This document shows, piece after piece, positions 1,555 to 32,074 of a stretch of 32,074 nucleotides of DNA. Made by a program: the position numbers and the translations under genes. Source of the stretch: Clostridiales bacterium (GTDB taxonomy: Bacteria; Bacillota; Clostridia; Christensenellales; Aristaeellaceae); contig SVGU01000027.1 of NCBI GenBank assembly GCA_015056155.1, forward strand, positions 1 to 32,074. The letters are read 5' to 3'. Each line of letters begins with the position of its first letter. Within the stretch, counting starts at the first letter, position 1. Under the pieces are notes generated by a model. That model did no database searches. It worked only from the letters and a program-made list of their open reading frames with translations, and had not been told where the DNA came from.

Positions 1555-3444
1555 TCATTCTACATACTTGTATTCTCCGCAATAGGAACACTGGTAGACG
1601 CTGAAACCATATCCATCCTCCAACCAGACGAAATTATGATTGATCGGAGGTGTCTCTACCTCATATATATCTCCACAGTAGGTACATTCATAATGATCGA
1701 AGGTGCCCCATACGCAAGCGAGTCCTTCAGACCATATCAATGAATAATTGTGGCCAGTCAGAGGTAAATCTTCACTATAGGTTCTCCCGCAGTTGCTACA
1801 CCGGTAAATGCGAGAGCCTTTTGATGTACATGTCGCAGGCGATATCTCAGCAAGTGAATAATCGTGACCAGTAGAGGGGGTTTCGTCATAATAGTAATCT
1901 CCGCAATGACATTTATAGATGTAGAGGCCGGAGGTCTCGCATGATGCAGACCGGACTAGACTGCCCGAATCGTAGGAGTGCCCGGTTGCGGAAATCGGCC
2001 AAGAGTCTGCAACATAACCGCAAATTGTACAGATACTGGCATTTTCTCCGTCTTCTACACAGGTGGGGCTCTTCAATTGCTTGGTAGCAGTACGATGACC
2101 GGTGGCAGAGATTGTATCATTGAAACTATAGCCGCAACTTGTACAGGTGTATGTAATTGTTCCGTTATTTGTGCATGTGGCATTGATGGTTTCGCGAGAA
2201 GCCATCTGGAGATGTTCGCACATTGCGTAAGTTTCGGCGACTGCTGAGATGCCAACGACGAATTCCTTTTCATCTAATGCTACAACACGATAGGAATTAA
2301 AGTAATTGATGTATGCGCCAGTGTCCAAATGGGTTGTGTGCGATGTTGTACCAATGGAAACCATGGAACTTGATTCGCTCCCCTTACCTTTAGCTCTGTA
2401 GACAGCATACTCTTTGGCTTTGGATACAGAGTTCCATGAAAGGCTAACCCCGGAGCCATTAAAATTGACTGAGGTGATCGAGAATAGTGTAACAACTCTT
2501 ATCTCGGATACACCAATGACCACATCATTTTGATCGTGTGCATCAATACGATATGAGGTAGATTGTCTGGAATACACGCTTGCATCTTGGTATGTTGTTG
2601 TGGTTGTAGTTGCAATCGTTGTAGGGGAGACAGTCTTGTTGTTGGTTTTGTCCATGTGATTGATGGTGTATTTCTTTGCCCCGGGAACGGGATTCCATGT
2701 AAGCTTAACACCCGTACCAACATAATCAATGGATTTGAACAGGAATACCGTAGGTTCAGGCGCAGGGGCTGCTGGTACAGAGGTGTCGCTTTCGTCTCCA
2801 CGGGTAGAGGTGTCAAGATTGGGAGTCGGAGTCGGTGTTGGTGTTGGAGTCGGTGTTGGAGTCGGTGTCGGTGTTGGAGTCGGAGTCGGTGTTGGTGTCG
2901 GAGTCGGTGTTGGTGTTGGAGTCGGTGTTGGTGTTGGAGTCGGTGTTGGTGTTGGAGTCGGAGTCGGAGTCAGTGTGGGAGACGGTTCAGACACAGAAGC
3001 CGTTGAGGATATGAAAGCTGATGTAGGAGTTGGGGTCGGAGTGGAAGTTGGTGTTTCATAGACCACAGGTGTGCATGCAGCAAGTGCGGTCAGTTCGTCC
3101 AGTGTCACGATCAATGCACCATTACGGCCGTGGCTTGGTGTCAGCTTATGATCGTTACAGTAATCCTCATAGGCATAGTAAGTCTCCGCATCAAAGTCGC
3201 CTGTCAGGCTTCCCTGATAGTACCCCAGCTTTTGCAACTGAAGCTGCAGTTCCTGCACATTGCGGCTGCTTTTGTCCCCGAAGGTAGCAAAGGCTTCGTT
3301 GCTCAGCAGAAGGTATGCGGCAGTGGCGCAGATCGCCAGAAGCAGCACGATGAACAGCCACAACGGAATGCTGATGTGGTGTGGCTTGTTTGGTATGCCG
3401 CTGTCGGTGCGGTATTTTCCGCTGCCGCGGGTGGAGTCGGACAT
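1555..3444 (-). CDS. Membrane-anchored surface protein: PG-binding-like domain, Thr-Pro linker, FN3-like and CxxC repeats
   Basis: This is a 629-residue protein. I chose ATG 3444 because AAAGGAAGTG lies just upstream; a longer frame would start before the promoter. Residues 28-47 form one hydrophobic helix after a basic N-terminus, so the protein is probably an N-in, C-out signal-anchor protein. Next comes a peptidoglycan-binding-1-like segment (VQELQLQLQKLGYYQGSLTGDF). A long Thr-Pro dipeptide tract follows, then two Ig/FN3-like units with TWNPVPGAKKY and SWNSVSKAKEY. The C-terminus carries about six repeats of the pattern TCT-x2-G-x3-Y-x-C-x2-CG with a GH pair, probably zinc-ribbon-like. 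Such CxxC repeats are common in clostridial surface proteins, and the giant protein at 10.6-17.1 kb has them too. Role unknown; cell-wall contact is an inference. Confidence 0.85.
   Translation of the reverse strand: MSDSTRGSGKYRTDSGIPNKPHHISIPLWLFIVLLLAICATAAYLLLSNEAFATFGDKSSRNVQELQLQLQKLGYYQGSLTGDFDAETYYAYEDYCNDHKLTPSHGRNGALIVTLDELTALAACTPVVYETPTSTPTPTPTSAFISSTASVSEPSPTLTPTPTPTPTPTPTPTPTPTPTPTPTPTPTPTPTPTPTPTPTPTPTPTPTPNLDTSTRGDESDTSVPAAPAPEPTVFLFKSIDYVGTGVKLTWNPVPGAKKYTINHMDKTNNKTVSPTTIATTTTTTYQDASVYSRQSTSYRIDAHDQNDVVIGVSEIRVVTLFSITSVNFNGSGVSLSWNSVSKAKEYAVYRAKGKGSESSSMVSIGTTSHTTHLDTGAYINYFNSYRVVALDEKEFVVGISAVAETYAMCEHLQMASRETINATCTNNGTITYTCTSCGYSFNDTISATGHRTATKQLKSPTCVEDGENASICTICGYVADSWPISATGHSYDSGSLVRSASCETSGLYIYKCHCGDYYYDETPSTGHDYSLAEISPATCTSKGSRIYRCSNCGRTYSEDLPLTGHNYSLIWSEGLACVWGTFDHYECTYCGDIYEVETPPINHNFVWLEDGYGFSVYQCSYCGEYKYVE
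2818..2970 (-). repeat. Thr-Pro codon repeat tract
   Basis: About 150 bp of tandem ACN-CCN codons (seen on + as ggagtcggtgttggt units) encode an uninterrupted Thr-Pro spacer. It is probably an extended wall-spanning linker and likely to vary in length between strains. Confidence 0.9.
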
Positions 3445-22791: not shown

Positions 22792-23586
22792 TCAGGAGAG
22801 CAGCGCGCGGTCGTTGGCGAACTCGTCGCCGCTGACCCGGGCGAACTGCTCCAGCAGGTTCTCCACCGTGAGCTTCTTCTTCTCCTCGCCCGCGATGTCC
22901 AGAATGACCTTGCCCTCATGCATCATGATCAGCCGGTTGCCGTAGGCGATGGCGTCGCGCATGTTGTGAGTGACCATCATGGTCATCAGGTTGTTCTCCT
23001 CGATGATCTGCCGGGAGAGGGTCAGCACCTTTTCGGCCGTGCGGGGGTCCAGCGCGGCGGTGTGCTCGTCCAGCAGGAGCAGCCGGGGCTTCTTCAGCGT
23101 CGCCATCAGCAGGGTCAGCGCCTGACGCTGGCCGCCGGAGAGCAGGCCGACCTTGCTGGTCATGCGGTCCTCCAGACCAAGGCCCAGGGTCGCCAGCTTC
23201 TCGCGGTATTCCTCGCGCTCGGCGCGGGTGATGCCGGCCCGCAGGGTCCTGCGCTGACCGCGGCGGGCAGCTAGGGCGAGGTTCTCCTCGATCTGCATGG
23301 TGGCGGCGGTGCCGGTCATGGGGTCCTGGAACACGCGGCCCAGCATGAACGCCCGGCGGTGCTCCGACAGGTGGGTGATGTCCTGCCCGTCGATGATGAT
23401 CTGCCCCTCGTCCACCGGCCATACGCCGGCGATGGCGTTCAGCGTGGTCGATTTGCCCGCGCCGTTGCCGCCGATGACGGTGACGAAATCGCCGTCGTTC
23501 AGGTGGAGGTTGACGCCGTTCAGCGCGACCTTTTCATTGACCGTGCGGGGGTTGAAGGTCTTCCGGACGTTGATCAGGTCAAGCAT
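22792..23586 (-). CDS. ABC transporter ATPase, TrpXYZ-type (COG1101-like)
   Basis: A 264-residue nucleotide-binding subunit that powers the importer encoded upstream. Walker A is GGNGAGKST at residues 39-47. The Q-loop is near GRVFQDPMTGT. The signature LLSGGQRQAL, Walker B RLLLLDEHTAALD and the switch His in MMVTHNMRDA are all present. GRVFQDP and DEHTAALDP are typical of the ATPase paired with COG4120 permeases and COG2984 binding proteins; that group includes the proposed tryptophan transporter TrpXYZ of Firmicutes. It overlaps the permease gene by 8 nt, and GGGAGG lies 8 nt before the ATG. It is the last gene of the operon. Confidence 0.93.
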   Translation of the reverse strand: MLDLINVRKTFNPRTVNEKVALNGVNLHLNDGDFVTVIGGNGAGKSTTLNAIAGVWPVDEGQIIIDGQDITHLSEHRRAFMLGRVFQDPMTGTAATMQIEENLALAARRGQRRTLRAGITRAEREEYREKLATLGLGLEDRMTSKVGLLSGGQRQALTLLMATLKKPRLLLLDEHTAALDPRTAEKVLTLSRQIIEENNLMTMMVTHNMRDAIAYGNRLIMMHEGKVILDIAGEEKKKLTVENLLEQFARVSGDEFANDRALLS

Positions 23587-24496
23587 GGCTGTGGCCTCCC
23601 TTCTTCAGATGGATCTTTCCCTTCCAGTAGGGAAGCGCCAGGAACATTGCCACCACCAGCGCAGACAGGAGCTTGAGCAGGTTGGTGTCCAGACCCAGCC
23701 ACAGGACCACCTGGATGACGACATAGTACAGCACGGCGCCGATGACCACCGCAAAGAGCTTGGCGGCGAAGTTCGTGAAGAGCTTGCCGAAGATGACATT
23801 GCTGATGATGATCGCGGCCAGGCCGATGACGATGGCGCCGCGGCCCATGTTGACGTCCACGAAGCCCTGATAGTGGGAGTACATCGCAGAGGCCAGGGCG
23901 ACGATGCCGTTGGAGACCATCAGGCCGAGGATCTTGTACAGGTTGGTGTTCAGGCCCTGCGCGCGGGACATGGCCTCGTTCGCGCCGGTGGAGCGCAGCG
24001 CAGCGCCTACCTCGCGGCCGAAGAACCAGTACAGCACCGCGATCAGCACCACCACCACGATCAGCGTGATGAAGATCGGGTTTTGCAGGGACAGCTCTCT
24101 GACATAACGCGAGGACACGATCAGGTCATACTTCCGGATGTTGACCGCCTGATTCGCCTTGCCGCCCATGATGACCAGATTGATCGAATACAGGGACAGC
24201 TGGGTCAGGATGCCGGACAGGATCCCGGGGATGCCCATCGCTGTGTGGAACAGACCTGTCACCAGGCCCGCCAGCATGCCGGCGATGATCGCGCACAGCA
24301 GCGCAATCCAGACATTGACGCCCGCGATCATCAGCATGATGCACACCGCGCCGCCGGTCGCCATGGTGCCGTCGACGGTCAGATCGGAAAAGTTCAGGAC
24401 ATTGTAGGTGATGTACAGGCCGATGGCCATGATGCCCCAGATCATACCCTGCGCGACAGCGCCGGGCATTGCGTTAAGCAGAGTCGCCAAATTCAC
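23579..24496 (-). CDS. ABC transporter permease, TrpXYZ-type (COG4120-like)
   Basis: A 305-residue inner-membrane permease with about eight hydrophobic helices. It has features of the branched-chain-like permease fold: TYNVLNFSDLTVDGTMATGG near the N-terminus, and the cytoplasmic loop EVGAALRSTGANEAMSRAQG that should contact the ATPase. The start is GTG 24496, with GGAGG 8 nt upstream. It ends in the basic tail LKKGGHSHA, whose codons overlap the ATPase start. A G/C-rich stem-loop precedes it, which may lower its expression relative to the binding proteins. Confidence 0.92.
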   Translation of the reverse strand: MNLATLLNAMPGAVAQGMIWGIMAIGLYITYNVLNFSDLTVDGTMATGGAVCIMLMIAGVNVWIALLCAIIAGMLAGLVTGLFHTAMGIPGILSGILTQLSLYSINLVIMGGKANQAVNIRKYDLIVSSRYVRELSLQNPIFITLIVVVVLIAVLYWFFGREVGAALRSTGANEAMSRAQGLNTNLYKILGLMVSNGIVALASAMYSHYQGFVDVNMGRGAIVIGLAAIIISNVIFGKLFTNFAAKLFAVVIGAVLYYVVIQVVLWLGLDTNLLKLLSALVVAMFLALPYWKGKIHLKKGGHSHA

Positions 24497-24520
24497 GGTT
24501 GCTTCCTCCAGACAGTATGC

Positions 24521-24551
24521 GGAGGAAGGGAGGCATTTCTGCCTCCCCTCC
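24521..24551 (-). other. Intercistronic stem-loop between binding protein and permease
   Basis: On the minus strand GGAG-GGGAGGCA pairs with TGCCTCCC-TTCC around GAAA. No T-run follows, so it probably acts in RNA processing or stability rather than termination. Confidence 0.65.
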
Positions 24552-24565
24552 TGCAGGGTGAGTTA

Positions 24566-25513
24566 TCAGTTGATGGCCACGTAATCCTCGGGGATCGCGA
24601 CCTTCAGGATCTCGCACAGCTCGGCGTTGTACTTCTTGGTGACGTTGGGAGCGAAGCGGATGGCCATCGTGGCCACGTCGGCGCCGTTCACCAGGATCTC
24701 GTAGGCCATTTCGCCCGTGGCGCAGCCCAGATCGTAGTAGCTGATGGACAGGGTAGCCACGCCACAGCCGGAGCAGATGCCCTCTTCACCGGCGATGACC
24801 GGCACGCCCTCGGGCTCGACCACGTTGCGGATCGCCTCGGTGCAGGAAGCGGCGGTGTTGTCGGTGGGGATGTAGATGACGTCGCTGGTGGCGCAGGCGT
24901 TCATGGCCACGGAGGAAACGTCGTTGGAGTCAGCGAAGGCGTAGTTGGTGCAGTTGTAGCCCATCTCGGTCAGGTAGCCGGTGATGACTTCCACCTGGTA
25001 CACGGAGTTGGCCTCGGCGGAGCAGTACAGCAGGCCGACTTCCTTGGCGTCGGGGAAGAGCTCCTTGAGCATCGCGGCCTGATCCGCCAGGGGCGCCAGG
25101 TCGGAGGTGCCGGAGATGTTCACGCCGGTCACGCCGGTCCAGTCGTCCATGTCCAGCGCGGTGGCATAGTCGGTGACGGAGGTACCCAGGATCGGGATAT
25201 CCTCGGTGCCGGCGTAGGCGGCCTGCAGGGCGGGGGTGGCGTTGGCCATGATCAGGTCAACGTCGGAGGCGATAAAGGAGTTGATGATGGTGATACAGGT
25301 GGCGGAGTCGCCGGAGGCATTCTGCAGATCGAACTTGACCTTGTCGCCCAGCTTGGCGGTCAGGGTATCCATGAAGCCCTGGGTCGCAGCGTCCAGCGCG
25401 GGATGCTGCACCAGCTGGCAGATACCGATGGTGTAGGTATCGTCGGCCAGGGCGGGAACGGACATGGTCAGGCACATCAGGACAGCGGTCAGGATTGCAA
25501 ACAGCTTCTTCAT
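24566..25513 (-). CDS. ABC transporter substrate-binding protein 1, TrpX-like (COG2984)
   Basis: A 315-residue extracellular binding protein. ATG 25513 follows GGAGGAACC. The signal peptide is KKLFAILTAVLMCLTMSVPA with likely cleavage after ALA; there is no lipobox, unlike its paralog. The mature part begins YTIGICQLVQHPALDAATQGF, a signature of the ABC_sub_bind (PF04392) family. ILGTSVTDYATALD, ISGTSDLAPL, GLLYCSAEANSVYQ and YIPTDNTAASC follow. Members include TrpX of streptococci, proposed to bind tryptophan. The leader of this operon points to Phe/Tyr instead. It is about half identical by eye to the gene upstream. Confidence 0.92.
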   Translation of the reverse strand: MKKLFAILTAVLMCLTMSVPALADDTYTIGICQLVQHPALDAATQGFMDTLTAKLGDKVKFDLQNASGDSATCITIINSFIASDVDLIMANATPALQAAYAGTEDIPILGTSVTDYATALDMDDWTGVTGVNISGTSDLAPLADQAAMLKELFPDAKEVGLLYCSAEANSVYQVEVITGYLTEMGYNCTNYAFADSNDVSSVAMNACATSDVIYIPTDNTAASCTEAIRNVVEPEGVPVIAGEEGICSGCGVATLSISYYDLGCATGEMAYEILVNGADVATMAIRFAPNVTKKYNAELCEILKVAIPEDYVAIN

Positions 25514-25615
25514 TTGGGGTTCCTCCATTCTACATTGCTGTTTTGTATTTTGAAGCCCCGTGGATCGCGGCAGTGTGCTGCTGCCGGGACCGTCAGGCTG
25601 GCTTCCGGTGGGTGG
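25514..25615 (-). other. Intercistronic region with nested inverted repeats
   Basis: Between the two binding-protein genes, CGGCAG/CTGCCG is nested inside GAAGCC/GGCTTC on the minus strand and is followed by an A-rich stretch. It is possibly a processing or partial-termination structure. Confidence 0.5.
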
Positions 25616-26569
25616 TTACTCCCCGATGGGTTGGCAGCCCTGGGGAACGGCGACGCCGAGGAATTCGCACATGCCGGTGTTGACGACCTGCGTGAAGGAA
25701 GGCGAATACGCAATGGGCAGCTGCGCGACGTCCGCCTTGCCCAGCAGGATATCGCAGGCCATCAGGCCGGTGGCATAGCCCAGGTCGTAATAGTTGATGC
25801 AGATGGTCGCCACGCCGCAGCCGGCGCAGATGCTCTCATCGCCGCCGATGACCGGCACCTGCTCCATCTCGATCACGTTCCGCAGCAGCTCGGTGCAGGA
25901 GGCGATGGTGTTGTCCGTGGGGACGAACAGCACGTCGCTGTTCTGGCAGGCGTTCTGCGCGACGGAGAACACATCGTTCGTGTCGGTGAAGGCGTACTCG
26001 GTGCAGGCATAGCCCATCTGCTCCAGATGTCCGCGGATGATGCGGATCTGGTAGATGGAGTTGACCTCGGAGGAGCAGTACAGCAGGCCGACCGCCTTTG
26101 CATCGGGGAACATGGTCTGCAGGAGCGCAGCCTGCGCGTCCAGCGGCGCCAGGTCGGAGGTGCCGGACACGTTGATGCCGGTCACGCCCTCCCACACGTC
26201 CATGTCCAGCGCGGCGGGGTAATCCGTTACGGCCACGCCCAGGATCGGCGTATCGCCGGTGGCGGCGCTGGCGGCCTGCAGCGCCTGCGTGGAGTTCGCC
26301 AGGATCAGGTCCACATCCTCGGCGAGGAACGCATTGACGATGGCGATGCATGTCGCCGGGTCGCCCGAGGCGTTCTGCACAGTCACCTCGCACTGATCGC
26401 CGAGCGCCTGGGCAAGGGCGTCCATGAAGCCCTGGGTGGCGTCCTTCAGTGCGGTGTGCTGCTCCAGCTGGCATACGCCGATGCGGTAGCCTGTTTCGGC
26501 AGACGCACAGCCGGCAAGCTGCAGCAGCAACAGCAGCGCCGCCATCAGCAGTGAAGCTCTCCGTTTCAT
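25616..26569 (-). CDS. ABC transporter substrate-binding lipoprotein 2, TrpX-like (COG2984)
   Basis: A 317-residue binding protein and first structural gene of the operon. AGGAGG lies 8 nt before ATG 26569. The signal peptide ends in the lipobox LAGC (LLLLLQLAGCASAE), so it should be lipid-anchored. It shares YRIGVCQLEQHTALKDATQG, ILGVAVTDYPAALD, VSGTSDLAPL, GLLYCSSEVNSIYQ and GCGVATICINYYDLGYATG with the next gene, so the pair arose by tandem duplication. Two binders for one permease suggest differing ligand preference or placement. It is controlled by the long leader at 26570-26853. Confidence 0.93.
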   Translation of the reverse strand: MKRRASLLMAALLLLLQLAGCASAETGYRIGVCQLEQHTALKDATQGFMDALAQALGDQCEVTVQNASGDPATCIAIVNAFLAEDVDLILANSTQALQAASAATGDTPILGVAVTDYPAALDMDVWEGVTGINVSGTSDLAPLDAQAALLQTMFPDAKAVGLLYCSSEVNSIYQIRIIRGHLEQMGYACTEYAFTDTNDVFSVAQNACQNSDVLFVPTDNTIASCTELLRNVIEMEQVPVIGGDESICAGCGVATICINYYDLGYATGLMACDILLGKADVAQLPIAYSPSFTQVVNTGMCEFLGVAVPQGCQPIGE

Positions 26570-26593
26570 CGCGATCCCTCCTGTTTCGCATTG

Positions 26594-26627
26594 AAAAAGC
26601 GGCTTCTCATCTAAAAGAAGCCGCTTT
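26594..26627 (-). terminator. Attenuator terminator in the leader of the ABC operon
   Basis: AAAGCGGCTTCT (26616-26627) pairs with AGAAGCCGCTTT (26596-26607) around an 8-nt loop, followed by T residues (TTTTT including the stem end). It lies between the leader peptide and the first structural gene, where a terminator makes sense only if regulated. Its loop and upper 5' arm are complementary to 26653-26667. Confidence 0.85.
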
Positions 26628-26641
26628 CCTGTGACGGTATG

Positions 26642-26821
26642 TCACGAAATCTGCTGTCTTTTAGATGGCTGCAAGCCCATAAAGTAAAAGGAAGAATAAA
26701 AGGAAAAACGCAGCACGCCAAAATAGCATGCTGCGTTCAGATAGGCAGAGTGCGCCGCCGCACTGACGGCACAGACGGAGCGGGTGCTGACATGGTTCAT
26801 GCTCATCGCACGGTTCATCAT
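26642..26821 (-). CDS. Leader peptide of the ABC operon, rich in Phe and Tyr
   Basis: A 59-codon frame with a proper RBS: AGGAGG (26831-26836) lies 9 nt before ATG 26821, and transcription should start about 30 nt upstream. The peptide begins MMNRAMSMNHVSTRSVCAV. Residues 27-47 contain nine aromatic residues, culminating in FSFYSSFYF (39-47). The end is MGLQPSKRQQIS. No Trp codon occurs. The codons of residues 52-57 form one strand of an antiterminator with the terminator downstream. Such an arrangement is typical of ribosome-mediated attenuation, in which stalling for a scarce amino acid lets the operon be read. Part of the Phe richness could reflect the T-rich tail of the hairpin at 26707-26737. 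Confidence 0.7.
   Translation of the reverse strand: MMNRAMSMNHVSTRSVCAVSAAAHSAYLNAACYFGVLRFSFYSSFYFMGLQPSKRQQIS
26653..26667 (-). promoter_or_regulatory. Antiterminator strand within the leader peptide gene
   Basis: The minus-strand CATCTAAAAGACAGC can pair with GCTTCTTTTAGATG, the loop and six bases of the 5' arm of the terminator: 11 contiguous pairs, a bulged C, then three pairs. The pairing excludes the top half of the terminator stem. It starts 13 nt after the last Phe codon, about the reach of a stalled ribosome. Confidence 0.7.
26700..26737 (-). terminator. Hairpin with T-run inside the leader peptide gene
   Basis: AACGCAGCA (26729-26737) pairs with TGCTGCGTT (26707-26715), extendable inward by three pairs including a wobble, followed by TTTTTCCTTTT. 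It looks like an intrinsic terminator, or a strong pause, that a translating ribosome would open. Confidence 0.75.
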
Positions 26822-26859
26822 GATGCAGCGCCTCCTGTCTGTTCCTGATTTCTGTGAGA

Positions 26860-26889
26860 ATTATAAACCCGGGAAAATGGGATTGTCAA
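26860..26889 (-). promoter_or_regulatory. Promoter of the ABC transporter operon
   Basis: On the minus strand perfect TTGACA (26884-26889), an 18-bp spacer and perfect TATAAT (26860-26865). A start near 26853 gives a leader of about 285 nt. Confidence 0.9.
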
Positions 26890-26978
26890 TATCCGATGCC
26901 GCCCGTATGGACAGAATCTGGGAATTGTACACAGAAAAAACAATGCCGGACGGTGAAGATGCTGTGCACTGGCGGGGG

Positions 26979-29900
26979 TCACATGGTGATGCGCAGGGCG
27001 CCGATCTTGTCGTCGTACTGGCAGGTGGCGCCGGGGATGTGGGGCGCGAGGGCGTTGACCTCCATGACCAGGATGCCCGTGTCGGTCACGTAGGGCTGGC
27101 CGTCCATGAGGTTCTCCCGGCCGTCCACCAGCAGATGGGTCGCGCCGGCCTGGGCGATGATCGTCCGGCCGCCGGAGCGCACGGTCAGGGTCTGGCTGAC
27201 GGCGTCCCAGTCGAAGTCCACCCGGTCGGGGAAGTTGGCCTTCATCCGCTCGATGATGCACATGACGTTGCCCCAGATCGCGCCGTTGCGGTTGACGGCC
27301 CGGACGCCGCGGAAATCCGGCTCCTGCCCGTTGAGCATGATCTTGCAGTACAGCTCCTTGTCCGGGGTGTACTTGACGGCGTCGGCCTCCGGGATGGGAG
27401 TGAAGAAGCACTCCTGCGGGTCGAAGGCGGGGTTGGCGTAGTCGGCGCGGCATGCGGGGCGGGTGAGGGCTGTCTGCTCCGCCGGAACGCTCGTCAGCGT
27501 GACGCGCGCCTCCGGCAGGCCCTCTGCCGATGCAGTCAGGGTGATCTCCCCGGCGGTCAGTCCGGCGCGGAGAAGCACGCGGTTCGTGCCGCATTCCGCG
27601 TATACATGATCCTGATGGATCACGTTGTCGCTGCGTCCGTTGCCGTTGAAGCGGCCGCTGTTGTAGCCGCCGAGGAACACGGCGTCGCCGGTCAGGCGGA
27701 ATCGGATCCGGGCGTCGCAGAGCGGACAGATGCGCCCCTGTGCGTCCAGGACGGCGACGTCCACGCAGGCGAGGTCATTGCCGTCGGCGTGCAGTCCGCC
27801 GGGGGCTGTGCGGAGCGTCAGCTGAATGGAGACGGGTTTGCCGGCCGTTTCGATGCGGTCCCGGCAGAGCTCCCGGCCGTCGTAGGCGTATGCGACGGCT
27901 TCGGCGGATCCGGACTGTGTCACGTCCACATCGCGGATGGGGAAGACGAAGGTGTTTTCCGGCTCATCGCAGCGCCCGGCGAGGCGGCCGTTCACATACA
28001 GCTCCACCCGCGCCACGGCGTAGCTGCCGATGACGTAGACCGTCTTGCGGGTCGGGTCGCGGCGGAGCAGCTCGTCCGTCTCCTCCCAGTAGCTGCCGTT
28101 GAAGGCTTTGGCATGATAGCGGTAGCTGTCCTCCGTGAGCGCCGGGTAATTCCAGTGGCCGAGGATCTTCACGGCGGGCTTGACGCTCTGCATCGTGCGG
28201 TACACGTCGAAGGACTGCTTCCTTACGCGGATGGCGTCCACGCGCCCGCTCATGCGGCCGTTCTCCGACCAGGACTGGCGGCCGTGCTGCGCCGAATCGG
28301 TCCAGCACAGCGCGGCGGCGGCGCTGTACAGGTTCTTCCCGGAGGCGCCCTGAAGGCGGTCGTTGAAGAACTCCGCATAGCCCCGGGCGTTGGCGAGGGC
28401 CAGGTCCTCGCTGGTCAGGTCGTAGAAATCGCGGCCCTTCTGCTTTCTGCCAGCCTTGCCCAGCCACTTGTTGCGGTAGTCGAAATCCGGCGGCGTGAAA
28501 TCGTCCCAGACGCGCCGGGGTGCTTCCTCGCGGGAATACTCGGTCTCCGTGATCGGCCCGTGCTCGGAGAGGAACCGTCCGGCGTGCCGGTTGAGCATCG
28601 TGCCGACATACTCGGAATGGATCAGCACGTCCTCCGTGTTGATTGTCCGGCAGCCCATGAAGCGCCCGCCGCAGGGGTCCAGCATGTCCTTGACATGCTT
28701 CATTTCCGCCATGTGCGCGGCGTTGATGGAGTTGTTGCCGGCCTCCCAGAACAGGATGGAGGGGTGGTTGCGGAAGGCGAGGATGACATTGCGCATCAGC
28801 TCGACCCGCTGGTCCCACTGGCGGCCGAAGTTCTCCCGCTCCTTGTCGCCTGCGGGCTGGGTGCAGATCACGCCGTGGCGGTCGTAGGCGCGCACGTCCG
28901 CCGGGCTGCCCGCCACATGCATGAAGCGGATGTGATTCGCGCCGCTTTCCCGGATGAGCAGCGCATCCAGATCGTGCATCCACTCCGGAACGATGCCGGC
29001 GGCCGCCCACTCGTTGGTGGCGCGCTGTGCGTAGCCCCGCAGCCAGACGGGCTGATCGTTGATCATCACGCCCTGATCCTTGTCGTAGTGCACCTTGCGG
29101 AAGCCGGTTTCGATGACCTCGGTGTCCATTTCCTCTCCGCCGGCCAGGAGCGTGAGATGCACCCGGTACAGCGCCGGGTCGGTCAGGCTCCAGAACCGGA
29201 CACCGCTGATGCGTGCCTGCGCGCGGATGTGCTGCGTACCCGCGGCGGCCAGCTCGGTGGGGGCGACGAGCTCCTCGGGGGCGGGGACGTAGTGCCGGGT
29301 CGCCTCGTCCCAGACATAGGCGTCCTCCGGGGTGATGCTGATGCGGTGGATGCGGGCCTCCTCCGGGGCGGGGGACAGCGTCTCGCAGCCGGAGGAGAAG
29401 GCGGCGACCTCCTGCCCGTCCAGCGTACGCAGGGATACGCGCAGCTGCGCATCGACCGGGAGCGTCCGCAGATTCCGCACCTCCGCATCGACATGGAGCG
29501 TCATGGCGCTGTGGGCGAAGTCGAAATCCGAGCCGTAAACATAGGCGCCGTGGGTGCGGAGGTTGGCGTACAGGGGCAGCGTGAGGTGCACGTCCTTCTT
29601 GAAATGAATCATGACCGGCTGGCTGACGCCGCCCAGGACCGGGTTGAAATCATTGCAGTTCCAGAAGAACCCGACGCCCTCGCGGTCGGCGGGGATGCTC
29701 TGCTCCTGCGCAAGGAGGTAGGAGCCGGGGACCACATCCGGTTTGTTGGGCGTTTCGGCGATGCAGAAGGGGATGTTGCGGGTGGAGGTGTTGTCGGTGG
29801 CGATGGCGATGACGTTGTGCCCGTCGGGGGAGAGGAAGTCCGTCATGTCAAAGCCGAAGGGGCCCACGCCTGCCTCGTAGTATCCGCAGAGCCGGCCGTT

Positions 29901-30227
29901 GACGTAGAGGTAGCAGGTCTGGCGCATGCCCTCGAAGGCGATCAGCACCCGGTCGCCCCGATGCTCCGGGGGGACGTCCAGGCAGTTGCGGTAGAAGGCG
30001 GCGGTTCGGGTCTGGCCGCTGCCGGCGTCCTCGATGGGGACGGAGAAGAGCTCCCCGTCGTTGAAGGTGTGGGGCAGCGTGACCTGCTCCCAGCCTTCGT
30101 CGCAGTAGGCGGGATCATACACCTCCCGCCCGTGGGCGTCCCTGCAGGAGGCGAAGGCTTCTTCCATGGGGAAACGGTTTGCCAGACGGAATTTCCAGCC
30201 GTGGTGGAATGCATAGGTATTCGTCAT
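26979..30227 (-). CDS. Glycoside hydrolase family 2-like protein with C-terminal copper-amine-oxidase-N-like domain
   Basis: A 1082-residue protein. ATG 30227 has GGAGG 8 nt upstream, and there is no signal peptide. The N-terminal beta-sandwich has the GH2 sugar-binding pattern (WEQVTLPHTFNDGE, YRNCLDVPPEHRGDRVLIAFEG, LYVNGRLCGYYEAGVGPFGF). The barrel starts near residue 390 with VMINDQPVWLRGYAQRATNE. The conserved helix and strand read RNHPSILFWEAGNNSI. Typical GH2 enzymes have GNE there, so the general acid/base Glu is Asn499. ETEYS (Glu563) is the likely nucleophile. The last 80 or so residues resemble copper amine oxidase N-terminal domains, usually seen on exported proteins. It lies 69 bp downstream of a sugar-binding protein gene, so it probably processes an imported oligosaccharide. 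Substrate unknown. Confidence 0.88.
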   Translation of the reverse strand: MTNTYAFHHGWKFRLANRFPMEEAFASCRDAHGREVYDPAYCDEGWEQVTLPHTFNDGELFSVPIEDAGSGQTRTAAFYRNCLDVPPEHRGDRVLIAFEGMRQTCYLYVNGRLCGYYEAGVGPFGFDMTDFLSPDGHNVIAIATDNTSTRNIPFCIAETPNKPDVVPGSYLLAQEQSIPADREGVGFFWNCNDFNPVLGGVSQPVMIHFKKDVHLTLPLYANLRTHGAYVYGSDFDFAHSAMTLHVDAEVRNLRTLPVDAQLRVSLRTLDGQEVAAFSSGCETLSPAPEEARIHRISITPEDAYVWDEATRHYVPAPEELVAPTELAAAGTQHIRAQARISGVRFWSLTDPALYRVHLTLLAGGEEMDTEVIETGFRKVHYDKDQGVMINDQPVWLRGYAQRATNEWAAAGIVPEWMHDLDALLIRESGANHIRFMHVAGSPADVRAYDRHGVICTQPAGDKERENFGRQWDQRVELMRNVILAFRNHPSILFWEAGNNSINAAHMAEMKHVKDMLDPCGGRFMGCRTINTEDVLIHSEYVGTMLNRHAGRFLSEHGPITETEYSREEAPRRVWDDFTPPDFDYRNKWLGKAGRKQKGRDFYDLTSEDLALANARGYAEFFNDRLQGASGKNLYSAAAALCWTDSAQHGRQSWSENGRMSGRVDAIRVRKQSFDVYRTMQSVKPAVKILGHWNYPALTEDSYRYHAKAFNGSYWEETDELLRRDPTRKTVYVIGSYAVARVELYVNGRLAGRCDEPENTFVFPIRDVDVTQSGSAEAVAYAYDGRELCRDRIETAGKPVSIQLTLRTAPGGLHADGNDLACVDVAVLDAQGRICPLCDARIRFRLTGDAVFLGGYNSGRFNGNGRSDNVIHQDHVYAECGTNRVLLRAGLTAGEITLTASAEGLPEARVTLTSVPAEQTALTRPACRADYANPAFDPQECFFTPIPEADAVKYTPDKELYCKIMLNGQEPDFRGVRAVNRNGAIWGNVMCIIERMKANFPDRVDFDWDAVSQTLTVRSGGRTIIAQAGATHLLVDGRENLMDGQPYVTDTGILVMEVNALAPHIPGATCQYDDKIGALRITM

Positions 30228-30296
30228 ATGATCGTCCTCCATACAGGAAAGGGGCTGCCGCTTTCACGACAGCCCCGGGGCTTCAGGGATCAGGGA

Positions 30297-31805
30297 TTAC
30301 TTGGCCAGGGACTCCTGATAAGCGACGTTGTACTCTTCGATCATCATCAGGCCGCCCTCTTCTTCCCACTGCTGCCAGGCAGCCTGCAGGCCATCGAGGT
30401 CGATGATGCCCGCGATGTACTGGCAAGCGGCGTCGGACAGGATGGTGCTCAGCTGAGAACCGAAGGCAACGTTGGTCTCAGACACGAAGGGGTAGCAGGG
30501 GTCAGCCACGGCGTAGGGGGTCAGGATGGTGTTCAGCTCGTTGTAGCGGACGCGCATCGCGGAACCGGGGGTGGTGCCGGGCTTGATGGGGGTGCACAGG
30601 TCGCCGGCCAGGTTCATGCCCAGCTGGTTCAGGCTGTGCTGGTACAGCTTGCTGTTGGCGCCGATCTCGTCGCCCTGGTCAGCAGCCGCCACGCGGAAGC
30701 CTTCGCCGTCGGTCAGGTAGGTCAGGCCTTCAACGCCCCAGTTGAGCAGCATCTGGCCCTCAAAGGTGTTGGCCCAGTCCAGGAACTTCATGACCTTGGG
30801 CAGGTCTTCTTCCTTCACGGTCTTGGTCACGACGATTTCGCCGTTGAAGCCGGCGTTCTGGGGCCACACGGAGATGGAGCCGTCAGCCTTGGCCAGCGGG
30901 CCCACCATCTCGAAGACCTGCTCGGTCACGCCGGCATTCTTCTCGAACCATTCCTGCTGACGGTAAGCGTTGTCCAGGCAGTCAAAGCGCATGAAGGCCT
31001 TGTTCTGGCGCTCGATGTTGTCCCACTGGGAGGAGTCCAGGGTCGCGAAGTTGGGATCGATGCCGCCCTTGGCGTACAGGTCACGCAGCCAGTTCAGGCC
31101 CTCGAGGTAAGCGGGGGACTGGTGAGCGGGGTAGATCTTGCCCTCGGCGTCGATGCCCCAGTTGTGGGGAGCGCCGAAAGCGACGGTGATCACGTTGATG
31201 GTGCCCGCGGTGTAGGAGCACATGTTCAGCGCGTAGGTGTCCGCGGAGTAGGAAGCCAGAGCGTCGGCCAGAGCGGTCAGCTCTTCCAGGGTCTCGGGAA
31301 CCTTGGTGATGCCCATCTGCTCAGCGATGTCCTTGCGGTAGTAGATACCGGCGCGGGGGAACGCGCGGGTACGGTAGATACCGTAGATGCGGCCGTCGAT
31401 GGAGATGTTGCTGTAAACAGCGTCAGAACCGGCCAGGTTGGGGTAGTTCTCGGTATCCTTCACGTAGTCGGTCAGATCCCAGAACGCGCCGGCACGGGCG
31501 TTGTTGACCATGGTGGAGCCGCGGGCGTCGGTCATGACGATCAGCATGGGCTTCACATCGTCGGTCATGGTGGTGTTCAGGGTCTCGCCGAAGGTGGAGT
31601 TGGCGGCGTAGGTGATCTGCAGGCGCACGCCGGTGGCCTCTTCGATCGCCTTCAGCACGGGGTTGTCAGCGCTCACATCAGCGTCCTCGAGGGGGCTCAT
31701 GTCGGGCAGCAGCACGGTCAGGACAAAGGGTTCTTCGGCCGCGGCGAAGGACATCATGGACAGAGCCATCACCAGAGCCAGAAACAGGGAAACCAGCTTC
31801 TTCAT
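30297..31805 (-). CDS. Extracellular carbohydrate-binding protein of an ABC importer (family 1)
   Basis: A 502-residue secreted solute-binding protein. AAGGAGG lies just ahead of the ATG. Residues 1-23 are a signal peptide (MKKLVSLFLALVMALSMMSF, AAA) without a lipobox Cys. The mature protein has the family 1 / LplA-type layout: VLLPDMSPLEDADVSADNPV, EATGVRLQITYAANSTFGE, YGIYRTRAFPRAGIYYRKDI and WLRDLYAKGGIDPNFATLD. It ends with WQQWEEEGGLMMIEEYNVAY, common in LplA-like proteins. Large size and the adjacent LplC/YtcP-type permease suggest an oligosaccharide importer. It is probably co-transcribed with the permease and the GH2 gene. Confidence 0.93.
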   Translation of the reverse strand: MKKLVSLFLALVMALSMMSFAAAEEPFVLTVLLPDMSPLEDADVSADNPVLKAIEEATGVRLQITYAANSTFGETLNTTMTDDVKPMLIVMTDARGSTMVNNARAGAFWDLTDYVKDTENYPNLAGSDAVYSNISIDGRIYGIYRTRAFPRAGIYYRKDIAEQMGITKVPETLEELTALADALASYSADTYALNMCSYTAGTINVITVAFGAPHNWGIDAEGKIYPAHQSPAYLEGLNWLRDLYAKGGIDPNFATLDSSQWDNIERQNKAFMRFDCLDNAYRQQEWFEKNAGVTEQVFEMVGPLAKADGSISVWPQNAGFNGEIVVTKTVKEEDLPKVMKFLDWANTFEGQMLLNWGVEGLTYLTDGEGFRVAAADQGDEIGANSKLYQHSLNQLGMNLAGDLCTPIKPGTTPGSAMRVRYNELNTILTPYAVADPCYPFVSETNVAFGSQLSTILSDAACQYIAGIIDLDGLQAAWQQWEEEGGLMMIEEYNVAYQESLAK

Positions 31806-31874
31806 GGGGGAACCTCCTTATTTTTTATGTTCATGACGGATGCCTCCGCCATAAATCCGGATGAATGGGGCTGC

Positions 31875-32074
31875 TTAGCCCTTCAGAGCGCCGACCATGA
31901 CGCCCTTGACGAAGTACTTCTGCAGGAAGGGGTAGACGCACATGATCGGGATGGTGGATACCACGATAACGGCCATCTTGACGGACTGCTCCGGCGGCTG
32001 GATGAACTCGGGGTCCATGTTGGCCAGATCGCCGGCCGATGCGTTGGACAGAATGATGATCTCGCGCAGCAACA
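31875..32074 (-). CDS. Carbohydrate ABC permease, C-terminal end (5' part outside window)
   Basis: The last 66 or so residues of an inner-membrane permease of the LplC/YtcP (MalG-like) group. It has EIIILSNASAGDL and a hydrophobic helix (MAVIVVSTIPIMCVYPFLQ), and it ends with the group's typical KYFVKGVMVGALKG. The stop lies 69 bp before the binding-protein start, consistent with one operon. The EAA loop and other helices are beyond the window. Confidence 0.92.
   Translation of the reverse strand, partial: LLREIIILSNASAGDLANMDPEFIQPPEQSVKMAVIVVSTIPIMCVYPFLQKYFVKGVMVGALKG

Follow-up and report, generated by a model that had tools for sequence, protein, structure and literature searches.

A putative Phe/Tyr leader-peptide attenuator upstream of an ABC importer operon in Clostridia, with homologous leaders whose codons tend to follow the downstream pathway

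The leader in front of an amino-acid ABC importer operon on the minus strand of the window, by which we mean the whole 32,074-nucleotide stretch that was analysed, appears to be a ribosome-mediated attenuator that would sense charged tRNA-Phe and tRNA-Tyr and control the import of aromatic amino acids, probably Phe/Tyr. We give this reading a probability of about 0.88. It is based on the parts of the leader and their order, the aromatic codons lying in frame, the covariation of both pairings and the link to genes for aromatic amino acids, all of which can be read from the nucleotide sequences. The features are:

26889-26582, minus strand: attenuator leader, from promoter to the T2 region, upstream of the amino-acid ABC importer operon
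26860..26889, minus strand: sigma-70-type promoter, TTGACA-18-TATAAT (-35 at 26889-26884, -10 at 26865-26860)
26828..26836, minus strand: Shine-Dalgarno site of the leader frame, AGGAGG within the segment
26642..26821, minus strand: leader frame of 59 codons, MMNRAMSMNHVSTRSVCAVSAAAHSAYLNAACYFGVLRFSFYSSFYFMGLQPSKRQQIS, with homologous frames in relatives
26707..26737, minus strand: H1 hairpin (AACGCAGCATGC...GCGTGCTGCGTT) inside the frame, from folding; putative pause hairpin or first terminator
26681..26707, minus strand: codon tract FSFYSSFYF, at the same time the U-rich stretch behind H1; sites of the proposed stall
26645..26668, minus strand: antiterminator strand at the 3' end of the leader frame, with the core CATCTAAAAGA at 26667-26657
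26631..26645, minus strand: small hairpin GTGAC-ATACC-GTCAC, from folding, holding the leader stop codon
26596..26627, minus strand: intrinsic terminator T2 (AAAGCGGCTTCTTTTAGATGAGAAGCCGCTTT and a U tail), in which the antiterminator pairs with the stretch 26618-26608 of the 5' arm and loop
25616..26569, minus strand: SBP1, ABC substrate-binding protein (PF04392), first structural gene, with Asp at the Tyr-specificity position
24566..25528, minus strand: SBP2, second ABC substrate-binding protein (PF04392), with the Tyr-type pocket residues E248 and Y264
23579..24496, minus strand: ABC permease (PF02653)
22792..23586, minus strand: ABC ATPase (PF00005)

The perfect -35 and -10 hexamers, the ribosome binding site, the 59-codon frame with its FSFYSSFYF stretch and the terminator before the first gene, as described in the initial annotation, are all present on the minus strand, and what that description overlooked is the H1 hairpin inside the frame. 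The promoter hexamers match the consensus in 12 of 12 letters with a spacer of 18, one such promoter being found by the pattern scan as compared to 0.2 expected, and comparable hexamers are visible ahead of many homologous leaders. FSFYSSFYF corresponds to residues 39-47 of the leader peptide, and residues 27-47 hold nine aromatics and no Trp. The segment that had been proposed as complementary to the terminator loop and 5' arm also holds up: the 11-nt core CATCTAAAAGA, which begins 13 nt beyond the last Phe codon of the frame, is the exact complement of TCTTTTAGATG (26618-26608), a better complementarity than in any of 300 dinucleotide shuffles. The leader as a whole folds with z = -4.46, better than 200 of 200 shuffles, and the first structural gene begins at 26569, downstream of T2. 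A hairpin like GTGAC-ATACC-GTCAC can be seen in many relatives, judged by eye and not by a formal count.

From this arrangement we infer translation of the frame, stalling, read-through and a role for H1, as follows. When both Phe and Tyr are plentiful, the ribosome would reach the leader stop codon and mask much of the antiterminator strand, T2 would form, and transcription would end ahead of SBP1. If either amino acid runs short, the ribosome would stall at the Phe and Tyr codons just past H1 and leave the antiterminator free ahead of it. The antiterminator could then pair with T2's loop and 5' arm while the 3' arm of T2 is still to be made. T2 would then be blocked, and RNA polymerase would read through into the importer operon. 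H1 could act as a first terminator, or it could make the polymerase pause so that the ribosome keeps up with it.

The claim of a Phe/Tyr leader-peptide attenuator gains support from the relatives. In 20 homologous leaders the frame, the aromatic codons, the antiterminator and T2 are kept despite sequence change, and both of the mutually exclusive pairings covary. On 18 aligned leaders T2 has standard pairs in 97.1% of the cells and 6 pairs changed on both sides, a number equalled in 1 of 500 shuffles. The antiterminator is paired in 80.7% of the cells, as compared to 36-56% in slid controls, and 7 of its pairs show changes on both sides, a count seen in 2 of 500 shuffles. Of its 14 pairs, two do not form in 12 of the 18 sequences, and its count of further pair types is equalled in 116 of 500 shuffles. 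The pairing partners themselves diverge, being CATCTAAAAGA/TCTTTTAGATG in the window, CCGTCTGAAAGAAC/GTTCTCTTGGACGG in G034 and CCCATCTGAAGA/TCTCCGGATGGG in G162. Over 21 leaders, 0-32 of 300 shuffles were as good in antiterminator:T2 complementarity, and at most 20 of 300 in 20 of the 21.

Folding of partial transcripts that lack the 3' arm of T2 gave 12-20 antiterminator pairs for the free strand in all 21 leaders. In every leader there are two or more aromatic codons at which a modelled ribosome leaves the entire antiterminator free. Once moved to the stop codon, the modelled ribosome covers 7-28 antiterminator bases, and in 20 of 21 leaders the fold is then no stronger than -9.5 kcal/mol; 9-12 antiterminator pairs persist at this position in L034, L041 and L044. 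The ribosome footprint sizes in these models are assumptions, and the folding models cover nested pairs. Equilibrium folding favours T2 in 16 of the 21 leaders, which implies that the switch must be kinetic and decided during transcription.

When 100 related genomes were searched with the DNA, clear homologs came up in two, G009 from the genus of the window and G034 from a different genus, each preceding the same kind of ABC operon; the remaining matches were short. With the SBP2 protein, matches were obtained in 73 of 150 family genomes at E <= 1e-60; a single-sequence search of genome contigs with SBP1 gave no match. The upstream regions of 69 SBP2 homologs were scanned for aromatic-rich frames led by a Shine-Dalgarno site, and 16 of them had leaders of the window type and 3 had leaders of different sequence (L051, L053, L061). 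Aromatic content had a part in finding the first 18 leaders, which also trained the covariance models. Model R1 covers the part from the antiterminator to T2 of 18 leaders, mostly without the codon tract, by which it partly escapes this selection, and was searched against 250 family genomes. It gave 46 matches of at least 45 bits, 28 of them outside the training set, and 24 of the 27 new matches with complete upstream sequence follow a frame with at least four aromatic residues in ten. The three exceptions are G267 with no frame, G117 with a weak tract (F and Y once each) and G118 with a Leu tract. The 21 rows below 45 bits were dropped; among the 15 inspected, G118:C22 looked real and the others resembled ordinary terminators. 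Model R2, reaching from H1 to T2 and built from 33 leaders, gave 67 matches, spread over 57 of the 308 family genomes, and a frame with at least four aromatic residues in ten was found in 62 of the 66 matches with complete upstream sequence. In the window's own genus the element occurs in only 2 of 18 genomes.

Homologs that keep the terminator and lose the frame had been named beforehand as speaking against an attenuator. Such leaders do exist, with the frame lost or broken and T2 kept in two of the 66 model matches whose upstream sequence is complete, and the other tests were mostly favourable. In G267 (L130, G267:C3, approximately 3001-3150, minus strand) the promoter is followed directly by the antiterminator and T2, the frame and H1 being lost; as a natural deletion it would predict constitutive read-through. 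In G335 the start codon led by the Shine-Dalgarno site meets a stop after nine codons, and a later ATG persists in the frame of the tract. An order-wide search of 396 genomes, the family included, gave two rows of interest outside the family, G406 before a PaaK-like gene and the weaker G487 before an ABC gene (tract LFFYYYF), these being the two best rows and the ones inspected; 13 further rows were below 38 bits.

The gene behind the R2 matches, assigned by tblastn or by reading the protein starts, was an ABC binding protein in 51 cases, PaaK-like in 12, a DAHP synthase in two and LeuA-like in one, and one match lay at a contig end. One protein of each kind was scanned: the DAHP synthase of G165 passes the curated cut-offs, and the PaaK-like (phenylacetate-CoA ligase) and LeuA-like proteins have clear Pfam domains and fall below the NCBIfam equivalog cut-offs. 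In G165 the next long frame on the strand is trpE, and a chorismate mutase/prephenate dehydratase follows about 5 kb on. Codons were counted in 12-codon windows after H1. The ABC leaders (n = 46) hold 184 Phe, 63 Tyr and 14 Trp codons, the PaaK-like leaders (n = 12, one from outside the family) 60 Phe, 1 Tyr and 8 Trp, the DAHP synthase leaders (n = 2, both FFFGWWSW) 6 Phe and 6 Trp, and the LeuA-like leader (n = 1, tract LLLGL) 4 Leu and 1 Phe. Fisher tests gave 1.6e-6 for Tyr in ABC versus PaaK-like leaders, 5e-5 for Trp in DAHP synthase versus ABC leaders, 0.002 for Leu in LeuA versus the rest and 0.098 for Trp in ABC versus PaaK-like leaders; the tests treat related sequences as independent, so these values are overstated, and one LeuA-like and two DAHP synthase leaders are few. 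Judged from these counts, the leader codons tend to track the downstream pathway. In L135 (G118:C226) it was possible to observe Leu codons replacing the aromatic ones on the same scaffold, before the LeuA-like gene.

It could be argued that the Phe/Tyr run is a mere U-rich tail of a first terminator, H1, and that the leader consists of two tandem terminators with a fortuitous frame. H1 is indeed a strong hairpin (0 of 300 shuffles of the window sequence fold equally well) which directly precedes the U-rich tract encoding the Phe/Tyr run, and a simple terminator scanner flagged H1, and not T2, as the terminator. Since the U-rich tail of H1 is also the codon tract, the run in the window is not beyond chance; as many Phe and Tyr codons occur in 70 of 500 shuffles of the tract, and we rejected the window alone as evidence for it. 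At the sequence level it is the relatives that give the codons their significance. Counted over up to 10 codons after H1, with the tract end not chosen, which partly avoids the selection by the aromatic filter, Phe and Tyr make up 118 of 210 codons in frame in the 21 leaders, against 48 and 37 in the other two frames and about 50 in shuffles. Furthermore, some relatives have nearly all-Tyr tracts (FYYYYYYYY, FYYYYYLYYY), the DAHP synthase leaders have Trp-rich tracts and the LeuA-like gene has a Leu tract ahead of it, and we consider tandem terminators with a chance frame very improbable. The attenuator reading can on the other hand be extended, H1 being a true first terminator so that translation carries the polymerase past H1 and starvation carries it past T2. 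For such a pair of gates speaks that at most 26 of 300 shuffles match the H1 folding in 19 of the 21 leaders, with 4-8 T in the ten positions after it, and that a protector is lacking. A 1:2 protector strand was looked for in the 21 leaders, and pairing between the H1 region and the antiterminator was no better than in shuffles (mean z 0.09), so the classical four-strand trp/phe attenuator does not describe this leader. Untranslated RNA would thus leave the antiterminator free, and a fail-safe is to be expected. In L053 and L061, though, H1 is weak or lacking, and it could equally be a pause hairpin; on the 18 aligned leaders it is paired in 88.9% of the cells and its 2 pairs changed on both sides are reached by 221 of 500 shuffles, which is unremarkable. 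H1 with its U-rich tail may thus be a fail-safe or a pause coupling polymerase and ribosome, and we hold two gates to be a real possibility, at somewhat less than even odds.

The leader peptide could also sense a small molecule in the ribosome tunnel, as an arrest peptide of the TnaC kind, instead of codon scarcity. A similar PxPI ends several of the leader peptides; the antiterminator strand CCCATCTG codes for this motif, which changes along with the strand, for which reason we rejected it as an arrest motif, and the codons differ by pathway. We regard an arrest peptide as a long shot. Even less credible is that a T-box or an RNA-binding protein controls the operon and the frame is incidental. 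T-boxes do occur upstream of many homologous operons (see below), and the genome of the window has nine T-box matches elsewhere, which shows that both devices coexist. The initial annotation had pointed to a T-box as something that would explain the control, and none was found in the window leader: an Rfam scan gave no family at the gathering score, and the nine hits at relaxed settings were at chance level with no T-box (RF00230) among them, so a T-box or other Rfam RNA in this leader was rejected. Moreover, the antiterminator and T2 covary without any T-box feature. The attenuator that reads Phe and Tyr codons through the ribosome is thus the reading we prefer.

T-boxes (RF00230) were found before 27 of the 69 SBP2 homologs, 12 of them above and 15 below the Rfam gathering score, when 51 loci, i.e. 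the regions without a leader of the window type or another leader together with L061, were scanned at a relaxed threshold. An additional scan of 20 loci at the gathering score gave none. The T-box of L076 sits about 1 kb upstream. In 23 regions these scans gave neither leader nor T-box, and G117 among them was later matched by the model. Three T-boxes within one genus (G149, G047, G125) are on close homologs with SBP2 70-80% identical, and the T-boxes with a clear register sit on more distant homologs (approximately 61-64%), which makes their orthology less sure. The specifier loop, at what we take to be the specifier position in these T-box alignments, could be read in 14 cases. It is GAA-N-UUC (Phe) in four (L062, L066, L069, L072), GAA-N-UAC (Tyr) in two (L070 from G018, L073 from G106) and GAG-UAC in one (L091). 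The other seven (L029, L042, L045, L060, L078, L086, L096) have GAAUUC or GGAUUC, for which the usual register reads UCN (Ser). All 14 have a UGGU bulge, which asks for an A discriminator, and an A discriminator fits tRNA-Phe and tRNA-Tyr and not tRNA-Ser. A UUC specifier is likely in these seven. With the register doubtful in half of the 14, the case for Phe by itself is weaker, and the Tyr specifiers support an aromatic ligand.

The earlier proposal that the importer carries Phe or Tyr agrees with these Phe (UUC) and Tyr (UAC) specifiers and also with the Tyr-type pocket residues of SBP2. The label of a TrpX-type importer stands as a family label only, since the two binding proteins score 214 and 207 bits against the TrpX model NF041285 with its curated NCBIfam cut-off of 390. 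The closest solved relative of SBP2 is CD0873 (6HNI, E 9e-47). PMC6816091 describes CD0873 as tyrosine-binding, with two selectivity residues: Glu-263, which touches the hydroxyl of the bound Tyr, and Tyr-279, which keeps Trp out. The Trp-binding SP1069 has Gln (Gln-284) at the position of Tyr-279. Glu-263 and Tyr-279 align to E248 and Y264 of SBP2, and their equivalents are kept in 110 of 110 homolog rows, some loci being counted twice. The Trp-admitting Gln is absent, as there is a Tyr at the position of SP1069 Gln-284 in SBP2, in SBP1 and in the 110 homolog rows. The codons lean towards Phe, the T-boxes towards both and the pocket towards Tyr. Taken from these sequence comparisons, Phe/Tyr is a better guess for the ligand than Trp, which suggests that a "TrpX" importer carries Phe/Tyr. 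The operon has two adjacent binding proteins and one permease; SBP1 has an Asp where SBP2 has the Tyr-type Glu, and the ligands of the two may differ.

Attenuators of this general kind are known from enterobacteria, where the leader pheL precedes pheA and pheM precedes pheST. The leader in the window resembles them in its short Phe-rich frame, the presumed ribosome stall and the exclusive antiterminator and terminator. It differs in that the host belongs to another phylum, the peptide is longer, a 1:2 protector could not be detected, the main target is an importer operon and the codon tract is the U-rich tail of an in-frame hairpin. PMC2965389 describes leader-peptide attenuation as a device of Proteobacteria and Actinobacteria, with T-boxes serving Firmicutes, and notes leader peptides that replace T-boxes. 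In Firmicutes the excerpted sources describe his/hisS leaders (PMC2965389, PMC9413887), the Listeria ilv leader-peptide attenuator Rli60 (PMC5864092) and an ilv leader in S. aureus (PMC5794164). These are alike in that attenuation works via codons of the regulated pathway, and unlike the present leaders they use His or branched-chain codons and come from other lineages; a scaffold common to Phe/Tyr, Phe/Trp and Leu, as seen here, is not reported for them in those excerpts. The uORFC-13-1 motif is, in the available text of PMC8632094, placed upstream of aroF in Acholeplasma and environmental sequences only. It likewise combines a terminator with a uORF that holds Phe codon(s) and precedes DAHP synthase, and that text does not describe an antiterminator of the kind seen here. 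The published amino-acid cases in Firmicutes are, as far as these excerpts go, the His and branched-chain leaders and this proposed Acholeplasma uORF. The S. suis TrpX operon is reported to be under a T-box leader (PMC9382623); a member of the same transporter family is thus under a starvation-sensing RNA, which in that case reads tRNA directly and for Trp, whereas ribosome stalling for Phe/Tyr is what we propose here.

Ribosome-mediated attenuation itself is thus known; a search of open-licence papers turned up neither the scaffold nor a Phe/Tyr leader in front of this importer. One family of rumen and gut Clostridia would hold an aromatic-amino-acid regulon of homologous attenuators, with codons differing by pathway, beside T-boxes that serve homologous operons in related genomes. 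It is conceivable, though we hold it as a tentative generalisation, that they form a modular two-gate family of Clostridia in which the U-rich tract of an in-frame hairpin is both terminator tail and codon sensor, a classical protector strand is lacking, codon exchange retunes the device to Phe/Tyr (import), Phe/Trp (aromatic synthesis) or Leu (leucine synthesis), and Phe/Tyr T-boxes take its place on the same kind of operon. A change of specificity by codon swaps becomes directly testable, and so does the in-frame hairpin as a substitute for the protector strand.

A wider set of 80 loci, mostly from rumen and gut Clostridia and several identical to loci already in the family genomes, gave 17 matches to R2, three with a T-box-like core by pattern and nine short aromatic frames of another sequence type; the remaining loci had no R2 match, T-box-like core or aromatic frame by these scans. 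The nine leaders of this second type (L252, L253, L254, L255, L274, L276, L280, L289, L297) were observed before the same kind of operon, an example of the frame being MKVRLYAAYRFFYYFTESK. The terminator and antiterminator could be tested in eight of the nine, with 0-21 of 300 shuffles as good, and most of these leaders share an antiterminator like GAAGTTTGTGCTGCA. In some of the frames a TGCAGC upstream, seen by eye, could be a true 1:2 protector there. A pattern for the second type, allowing up to two mismatches, was found in 12 of 391 genomes of the class and in controls as well, and only G916 and G685 were judged likely from the matched letters. The aromatic frames L279, L291 and L307 were set aside by eye.

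Upstream of the leader, the window has a gene for a 1087-aa family-2 glycoside hydrolase with a copper-amine-oxidase-N1-like C-terminal domain (26979-30242, minus strand), and a gene that by its appearance encodes a putative secreted solute-binding protein (30297-31805, minus strand). Very long antisense open frames of 1085 and 1763+ aa are found on the plus strand at 23297-26554 and 26784-32072, probably an effect of the high G+C codon usage.
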